Made by a program: the position numbers and the translations under genes
Assembly: GCA_011192175.1 (NCBI GenBank)
Contig: DUEJ01000016.1
Span: 1 to 33,197 of the forward strand
Direction: 5' to 3'
Length of the DNA stretch: 33,197 nt
Origin: Thermoflexia bacterium
GTDB lineage: Bacteria; Chloroflexota; Anaerolineae; B4-G1; SLSP01
Shown: piece by piece, positions 2,536-17,544 of the stretch
Layout of the letters: each line of letters opens with the position of its first letter
How positions within the stretch are numbered: position 1 is the first letter of the stretch
Notes under the pieces: generated by a model
What the model saw: the letters and a program-made list of their open reading frames with translations, nothing else
The model's database searches: none
What the model was told of the DNA's origin: nothing

Positions 2536-2588
2536 AAGGGGAGCTGAGATTCTCCGGAAGCTGGCGGTTGAAATCGCGCCAACGGGTA

Positions 2589-2630
2589 CGAAGTCGGCCT
2601 GCGCCGACCAGTCCACGCAGGTGGACTTCG
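2589..2630. repeat. Two-hairpin repeat (possible three-way junction)
   Basis: cgaa-GTCGGC ctgc GCCGAC-ca-GTCCAC gcag GTGGAC-ttcg: two perfect 6-bp stems enclosed by cgaa/ttcg. Confidence 0.7.
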
Positions 2631-2755
2631 CAAGGGTAGCCGCGAATTCCCACGGCCCAGAGCCGTCTGGCAAGGGTATTCGCCAGGCTCGGTCGGGAAA
2701 CCGGCCAACCTAGCCGTAGCCAATAACTCCGTCTACTGCCTACCGCCCCCCCCTA

Positions 2756-2796: not shown

Positions 2797-4656
2797 ATGG
2801 GCTTTTTCCACGGCTTAGATCGTGAATCTTACGACCGCGAATACAGTGACCGCGAGCTCGGTCTGCGGTTAGCACAATACTTCAAACCCCACGGCAAAAA
2901 ATTACTGGGCGCGGGAGGTTTAACGGCGTTGCTCTCTGCCAGCGCCGCTCTCCAACCGGTGTTGATCGCGCGCGCGCTGGATTCGCTAATCATTGACCGC
3001 CAACGCTTGGACGTGATCTTGGGCCTAGTGCTCTTCATGCTCGGCTACGGCATCCTCAACTGGGGCGGGAACTGGTGGCGGCGCCGCACCATCGCCCGTA
3101 TCATCGCCGATATGATGACCACGCTGCGCACCGATGCTTTCGCGGCCTCCATCAGTCATGACCTCTCCTTCTTTGATGAATTCCGCTCCGGACAGATTAT
3201 CAGCCGCATCACCACGGACACGGAGGAGTTCACCAATGTAGTGCAGATGGTCTCAGATCTCATCGGGCAAGGTTTACAGGTTATCATCTTGACCGGCTAC
3301 CTCTTCACCATCTCTTGGCGGCTCACCTTATTACTCTTAGGCATGGCTCCCGTCGTCATGTTGACCGCCTGGAGTTTCCGCAAGTTAGCCCGCAAAGTAA
3401 CGCGCAAAGGCTTCCGGGTGTTGGCGAAAGTCAACGCGGCCATCCAAGAAGCCGTGACCGGCATCAGCGTCGCCAAGAATTTCCGGCAGGAGGCCGCTAT
3501 TTACGCGGAATTCAACGTGGTCAACGAGCAATCCTACCGGGTAAACCTCTGGCGCGGCTACTCGCTCTCCAGCATGTTCCCCGCGCTCAACGCCCTCTCC
3601 GGCATCGGCACCGCCATCCTGGTTTACTACGGCGGTTTGCCGGCCACGGTAGGCACCATCACCATCGGCAATTGGTACCTCTTCATCTCCAGCCTGGATC
3701 GTTTCTGGTTCCCCATGCTCAACCTCTCCGCCTTCTGGAGCCAGATCCAGGGCGGGCTTTCCGCCGCCGAGCGCGTCTTCGCCCTCATCGACGCGCAACC
3801 CGCCGTCCAACAGCAAGCCTGCGAACCGGTGCGCGAGCTGCAAGGCGAGATCATCTTCGAGCAGGTGAATTTCCGCTACACCGAGCAGGAACAAGTCTTA
3901 GAGAACTTCTCCCTCCACATCCAACCGGGGGAGAGCGTAGCTTTAGTAGGACATACTGGCGCAGGCAAGAGCAGTCTCGCCAAGCTGCTCGTCCGCTTCT
4001 ACGAATTCCAGCGAGGGCAAATTCTAGTTGATGGGCGCGACATCCGCACCTTCGACCTACACCAGTACCGCCGACAGATTGGGAGCGTCTCACAGATCCC
4101 CTTCCTCTTCAACGGCACGGTGCTGGATAACATCCGCTACGGACGCCCAGAGATCACGGCCACGGCAGTGGAAAACATGGCGCGCCACATTGGGAATGGA
4201 GAATGGTTAACCGCCCTCCCCCACGGTCTCCAAACCGGCGTGGGCGAACGCGGCAGCAAACTCTCCCTAGGTCAGCGGCAGCTCGTCGCCCTGATGCGAG
4301 TACTGGTGCAAGAGCCGGCCGTCGTCATCTTAGATGAGGCCACAGCCAGCATTGACCCCTTCACCGAGATGCAAATCCAAGCGGCGACGGCGCTAATTCT
4401 GGCGCGCAGCACCTCCATCCTCATCGCGCACCGCCTCTCCACCATCCGCGCCGTGGATCGGATCATTGTGCTGCAAGCCGGCCGCATCATCGAAGAGGGC
4501 AATCACGAGACGCTCATGGCGCAGGGTGGACATTACGCCGAACTCTACAACACTTACTTCCGCCATCAATCCCTAGAATATGTGGAAGAGGTGGGCCGGC
4601 GCAAAGCCCGCCGCCCCCAGCTATACTCCGCGCCCCGTCTCCGGGGCGCGGAGTAG
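2797..4656 (+). CDS. ABC exporter half-transporter (permease + ATPase), likely second half of a heterodimer
   Basis: Transmembrane domain plus NBD: Walker A GHTGAGKSS, non-canonical signature LSLGQ, Walker B VVILDEATAS (catalytic Glu present), H-loop AHRLS. Confidence 0.93.
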   Translation: MGFFHGLDRESYDREYSDRELGLRLAQYFKPHGKKLLGAGGLTALLSASAALQPVLIARALDSLIIDRQRLDVILGLVLFMLGYGILNWGGNWWRRRTIARIIADMMTTLRTDAFAASISHDLSFFDEFRSGQIISRITTDTEEFTNVVQMVSDLIGQGLQVIILTGYLFTISWRLTLLLLGMAPVVMLTAWSFRKLARKVTRKGFRVLAKVNAAIQEAVTGISVAKNFRQEAAIYAEFNVVNEQSYRVNLWRGYSLSSMFPALNALSGIGTAILVYYGGLPATVGTITIGNWYLFISSLDRFWFPMLNLSAFWSQIQGGLSAAERVFALIDAQPAVQQQACEPVRELQGEIIFEQVNFRYTEQEQVLENFSLHIQPGESVALVGHTGAGKSSLAKLLVRFYEFQRGQILVDGRDIRTFDLHQYRRQIGSVSQIPFLFNGTVLDNIRYGRPEITATAVENMARHIGNGEWLTALPHGLQTGVGERGSKLSLGQRQLVALMRVLVQEPAVVILDEATASIDPFTEMQIQAATALILARSTSILIAHRLSTIRAVDRIIVLQAGRIIEEGNHETLMAQGGHYAELYNTYFRHQSLEYVEEVGRRKARRPQLYSAPRLRGAE

Positions 4657-17401: not shown

Positions 17402-17409
17402 CTATGCGT

Positions 17410-17521
17410 CTTTAGACTTTCGACCTTTGACTTTAGACTTTCGACCTTTGACTTTCGACTTTCGACTTTCGACTTTTGACTTTCGGCCTTTGACTTTTGA
17501 CTTTCGACCTTCGACTTTTGA
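17410..17521. repeat. Heptameric tandem repeat, 16 units in perfect phase
   Basis: ctttaga ctttcga cctttga ctttaga ctttcga cctttga ctttcga ctttcga ctttcga cttttga ctttcgg cctttga cttttga ctttcga ccttcga cttttga. Confidence 0.95.
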
Positions 17522-17544
17522 CTTATCTTCAAAGGAGCAAAACC

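Follow-up and report, generated by a model that had tools for sequence, protein, structure and literature searches.

Head-to-head double-hairpin repeats in a Thermoflexia genome are probably the gene-less ends of an IS200-like element

The sequence analyzed here (the window) is 33,197 nucleotides of contig DUEJ01000016.1 from the Thermoflexia bacterium assembly GCA_011192175.1 (Chloroflexota). Two plus-strand ABC exporter genes (466–2232 and 2797–4656) flank a 564-bp gap, in which two small adjacent hairpins can be read directly. Comparing the left arm with the reverse-complemented right arm shows exactly four differences, all of them in the stems, and pairing is kept in both. Adjacent hairpins with compensatory changes, as proposed in the initial annotation, are therefore real. 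When up to three mismatches are allowed, the GAAGTCSRCCTGCGYSGAC pattern is found in the window at these two sites only, with 0.11 expected, and the 161-nt region folded as DNA lies 4.4 standard deviations below shuffled sequences. The feature extends beyond the hairpins, to 2559–2688. The two hairpins are the inner, central hairpins of two longer units placed head to head, and both units are matched by R1, a covariance model built from 39 copies in the same genome. The features are as follows.

2559–2611, minus strand: unit B' (left, inverted), a 53-nt match to R1 (59.9 bits, E = 3.1e-17); hairpin 2, with one stem mismatch, is outside, then come the tag GTTG (CAAC on the plus strand at 2580–2583), the linker and, inside, hairpin 1
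2593–2608: hairpin 1 of unit B', GTCGGC-ctgc-GCCGAC, from the sequence and the covarying stem
2608–2688, plus strand: unit A (right), a match to R1 (65.4 bits, E = 5.7e-19), in the order hairpin 1, linker, GTAG and hairpin 2, whose upper part is longer by about 29 nt
2611–2626: hairpin 1 of unit A, GTCCAC-gcag-GTGGAC, from the sequence and the covarying stem
2636–2639, plus strand: GTAG at the base of hairpin 2 in unit A, a tag resembling the guide-like tetranucleotides of REPs, from the sequence
2639–2688, plus strand: hairpin 2 of unit A, GCC GCGAAT ... ATTCGC CA GGC, in which CA bulges from the 3' arm, from pair counts and the model alignment

The lowest-energy single-strand fold of 2589–2630 is one long imperfect hairpin (-25.2 kcal/mol as RNA, -13.8 kcal/mol as DNA), and the same stretch drawn as two hairpins is less stable (-20.2 and -11.7 kcal/mol). 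We favor two local hairpins because of the covariation across copies, not because of energy.

Other repeats are present nearby. Positions 2334–2535 hold a MITE-like element of 202 bp, which has an inverted repeat inside and perfect ends of 13 nt (TGTCATTCCGAGC...GCTCGGAATGACA); parts of it recur in the genome, often near two-hairpin units. Intergenic runs of heptamer repeats of the GTCAAAG/GACTTTCG type are found at 2240–2275 and 17407–17530, and also near units elsewhere. Within the first ABC exporter gene, at 1383–1431, the unit model gives a further weak match (19.6 bits, E = 1e-4) that is probably due to chance.

A search of the genome with positions 2240–2800 as the query gave 59 matches, most of them spanning the hairpin pair or one half of it. 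The consensus of the aligned copies is 51 nt long, 5'-AGTCnnCGnAGGnnGACTTCGCAAnnGTAGCCGCGnnTTYAnnCGCCAGGC-3'. Its first hairpin has a stem of 7 bp and a GNAG loop; a 10-nt linker and GTAG follow, and then the second hairpin, which has a 2-nt CA bulge near its foot. At least 39 model matches occur in this genome and 54 of 149 relatives carry the unit, so that the dispersed repeat family suggested earlier does exist. GTAG is present in 33 of the 39 units from this genome and in 92 of 150 units at tnpA loci, and B ends often have GTTG in its place. The unit resembles a REP in its high copy number, its extragenic position and the tetranucleotide at the stem-loop foot, which is GTAG here and either GTAG or GTGG in REPs. 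However, a REP is a single stem-loop of 20–40 nt, and the unit is 51 nt with two covarying hairpins.

Both hairpins are conserved as structures. In an ungapped, unfitted alignment of the 39 units from this genome, 97.9% of cells are paired and 7 of 15 pairs have changed on both sides, with such changes in both hairpins. The covariation score is 0.282, compared with 0.092 for shuffled alignments and at most 0.032 when partners are slid. The copies are related and the cell counts are thus not independent events. Units at the tnpA loci of other phyla, in an alignment that was fitted to the model, are 96.2% paired, with a score of 0.487 against 0.197 shuffled and 326 double-change cells against 82. 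Hairpin 1 is conserved and covaries as much as hairpin 2. The initial annotation had read the pair as selected structure and proposed a covariance analysis of its copies; changes among them do preserve pairing.

The two halves of a pair are rarely the same. Among 45 distinct head-to-head pairs from many genomes, hairpins self-pair at 97.5% of positions, and partners match each other at 69.8%. The four differences in the window are thus one case of a general heterodimer rule. Partners are identical in only one of the 45 pairs, and there the local stems are broken; within the Thermoflexia genome, by comparison, two random units are identical 43% of the time. This exceptional doublet (L015, 1490–1590) has its arms swapped, with AGTCCACGGAGGGCGACT on both sides and perfect long cross-pairing, and is perhaps a product of recombination or inversion. 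Heterodimers of REPs have been described previously (Di Nocera et al. 2013, PMC3733652). The complementary loops of the window pair had been taken to allow kissing or a three-way junction. Loops are identical in 17 of 45 doublets, near the roughly 12 expected by chance, and complementarity is not conserved; in the window it follows solely from the two units being inverted copies. Kissing is accordingly abandoned, and a three-way junction finds no support.

Since the window pair lies between two same-strand exporter genes, the hairpins could be maintained as RNA elements that serve host genes, such as terminators or protectors of mRNA 3' ends. REPs affect mRNA stability and termination, and 19 of 21 copies checked in this genome are outside long ORFs. 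However, the copies lie in either orientation and in intergenic regions that are unrelated, G.U pairs are rare in the stems relative to double changes, and an Rfam search of the window returned a tRNA only, with no match to the two-hairpin feature. An RNA role also leaves the linkage to tnpA described below unexplained. We regard it as very improbable as the main explanation, although it could be a secondary effect.

Many units are carried by larger repeats. About 20 copies in this genome are inside a MITE of about 153 bp with TIRs CTAGTGTTCTGTCA (L351–L355 and L405–L424; ends CTAGTGTTCTGTCA / TGACAGAACACTAG), with an A unit at the center of every copy seen. In the unit carried by this MITE, hairpin 1 is usually interrupted by a C.T mismatch. 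Two further genomes, G107 (L432–L443, GGGTGTTGAAAAAG...) and G136 (L446–L451, GACTGTCTGAAAAG...), have unit pairs centered in TIR elements of different types, which brings the genomes with such nesting to three. Dimers inside palindromes are known for the GTAG-15 and GTAG-23 REPs (PMC3733652). The Y1 enzyme may target such palindromes, or the MITEs may simply carry the units. Since the TIRs of these MITEs are ordinary, TnpA need not have caused the spread, and copy number is in part hitchhiking.

Taken further, the units would be nothing but inert passengers of DDE-type MITEs and other repeats, their number reflecting MITE amplification, and a search of this genome for the MITE without a unit found none. 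The TIRs nevertheless differ from genome to genome while the unit is common to them, and the window doublet shows no obvious TIR. The stems covary, yet MITE-borne units mostly carry a stem mismatch, and passengers of MITEs would not be expected to cluster around tnpA. We consider this explanation improbable. The 5' flanks of the copies have C at 41 of 51 and T at 42 of 51, which we considered as a CT cleavage or target site and then withdrew; many of the single copies have a MITE or CTAG context in common, so the enrichment is not independent evidence. No clean empty site was identified in 450 kb of the same-genus genome G001, where intergenic regions are too rearranged.

The repeat family is well linked to a subclass of IS200-like Y1 transposases. 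In a scan by structure only, 14 of 53 IS200-type TnpA genes had units no more than 400 bp away, and shuffled flanks had none. We extended the scan to 79 named tnpA loci from Anaerolineae, Thermoflexales and Chloroflexales (Chloroflexota), Cyanobacteria, Armatimonadetes and Poribacteria. It gave 102 GTAG units within 350 bp at 50 genes, compared with 5–6 units at 4–5 genes for permuted tags, and a unit density of 1.87 per kb near TnpA genes compared with 0.13 per kb far from them. With the model, 133 of 150 strong matches are no more than 350 bp from tnpA; they come from 60 loci, 35 of which have matches on both sides of the gene. Genomes with at least 10 units are also enriched for IS200-type TnpA (12 of 17 compared with 38 of 132, p = 0.001) and are not enriched for RAYT. 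The remaining 5 of the 17, which are incomplete MAGs, show no IS200-type TnpA.

The arrangement is clearest in Nostoc and its kin, where an inverted B' unit just upstream of tnpA and an A unit just downstream form an element of about 550 bp in total. This B'-tnpA-A layout is found at 17 displayed cyanobacterial loci, and a search for cyanobacterial copies in a plasmid collection gave no match. At some Chloroflexota loci the copies are direct. In G001 a TnpA gene is followed immediately downstream by a close unit of the two-hairpin family. The assembly that contains the window (86% complete) has no close relative of this TnpA, and its one IS200-type TnpA has diverged units on its flanks.

The TnpA proteins match the structures of IS608 TnpA (E = 1e-19) and the NCBIfam IS200 model, and they carry the HuH motif. 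A second motif, Y---Q--HH, is present in 72 of the 79 named TnpAs and in most of the 53 relatives. Y---Q--HH defines subclass 1.2 of TnpAY1 (Quentin et al. 2018, PMC6006769), to which we provisionally assign these proteins by that motif only. Members of the subclass were reported generally to be without the typical terminal structures of IS200 and not to share IS properties; REP-like sequences were searched for in that study around tnpAREP-like genes (Quentin et al. 2018, PMC6006769).

A REP-type transposase was the partner originally suggested, and one is present in the genome. This RAYT (NF047646, 141.6 bits), on contig C108, has a GTAGCCGCGATTTCCAAATCGCG REP just upstream (L032, 1–643), and RAYTs of relatives are flanked on both sides by similar inverted REPs. 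Hairpin 2 of the unit starts with GTAGCCGCG, a sequence shared with the RAYT-side REP. The units might then be REPs of the resident RAYT, which would recognize hairpin 2 and GTAG, with hairpin 1 as a structured spacer only. However, the conservation and covariation of hairpin 1 equal those of hairpin 2. By the model, no RAYT gene has an adjoining two-hairpin unit, and the structure scan gave weak matches at 4 of 31. Units and RAYTs do not co-occur across genomes, and in one genome without a RAYT (G006) there are at least 37 units. We rejected the RAYT as partner, as its flanks bear a different, single-hairpin REP, and consider this reading unlikely. The RAYT and its REPs are a second, separate REP system. 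A Y1/HUH partner was thus correctly anticipated, in the form of an IS200-like TnpA rather than the REP-type enzyme.

We propose that the window contains a gene-less head-to-head B'A pair of the ends of a small IS200-like Y1 (HUH) element, B'-tnpA-A, that is recognized and cut by TnpA and spreads in trans, and we give this reading a probability of roughly two in three. The pair itself is probably a leftover of such an element; no tnpA lies between its units, whereas at related loci a Y1/HUH TnpA of the IS200 family does lie between the ends. What we observe is the repeat family with its covarying stems, its placement around tnpA and the B'-tnpA-A layout; from this we infer recognition, cleavage, guide use and mobilization in trans. 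In E. coli, TnpAREP depends on GTAG and on a bulge in the stem, and its cuts fall at C|T next to the REP; for IS200/IS605 enzymes the guide is a tetranucleotide where the hairpin has its foot (PMC8266576). By analogy, a TnpA of the subclass 1.2 type should recognize the B' and A ends as folded single-stranded DNA, with GTAG selecting the cleavage site as in IS608 and RAYT enzymes, and would cut and rejoin the ends. Gene-less pairs and single units may spread in trans. REPINs are thought to spread with RAYTs in this way.

The ends of IS200/IS605 elements normally face the same way. The units around tnpA in the Nostoc loci are inverted with respect to each other, rather than having both end hairpins on the same strand, and this counts against the proposal, as do the frequent GTTG tags of B ends, the failure to find a clean empty site or, in the window's own assembly, a close relative of the G001 TnpA, and the five unit-rich genomes that show no IS200-type TnpA. 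Elements such as IS608 and ISDra2 do share an HUH/Y1 TnpA of the same fold and subterminal hairpins after a guide-like tetranucleotide, but here the ends are mutually inverted double hairpins and most copies are without a gene. The REPINs, BIMEs and REPtrons of RAYT (TnpAREP) are similar in their high-copy extragenic hairpins with a GTAG foot, a stem bulge and inverted pairs, and in REPtrons a Y1 enzyme gene is flanked by its hairpins. In contrast, GTAG here lies between the two hairpins of a unit, and the unit flanks no cognate RAYT; the enzyme is IS200-like with Y---Q--HH. Unlike in these systems, pairs have GTAG inside (TT type) and both spacer hairpins are conserved.

TIRtrons (Di Nocera et al. 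2013, PMC3733652) also combine a Y1 gene with flanking inverted repeats, some of them double palindromes, and these repeats are found scattered as singles and pairs as well. However, the genes are RAYT-like and from other phyla, and a GTAG tag is mostly absent, whereas GTAG and IS200-like genes of apparent subclass 1.2 are found here. With the published subclass 1.2 (Quentin et al. 2018, PMC6006769) our genes share Y---Q--HH, a short protein, low gene copy number and occurrence in Cyanobacteria. In contrast to that description, most genes examined here have structured ends, and the range is widened to Chloroflexota, Armatimonadetes and Poribacteria. The relation of B'A to B'-tnpA-A resembles that of a MITE, a short gene-less derivative with inverted ends, but the ends here are folded double hairpins of a single-strand transposase.

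More broadly, subclass 1.2 may be a distinct transposition system across Cyanobacteria and Chloroflexota, with inverted double-hairpin ends, a GTAG guide, obligate heterodimers and gene-less pairs moving in trans, which would be REPIN-like but of independent origin, on the IS200 and not the RAYT side. We advance this tentatively, as a possibility a little short of even. The unit is best described as a variation on the theme of REPs, REPINs and IS ends, with a predicted activity. A subclass of single-strand transposases that had been reported without IS-type ends thereby gains a concrete, widespread candidate for its DNA substrate. The unit also supports more than one origin of REP-like repeat families from IS200-like enzymes, and it explains a very common, unnamed repeat of Chloroflexota and Cyanobacteria genomes.
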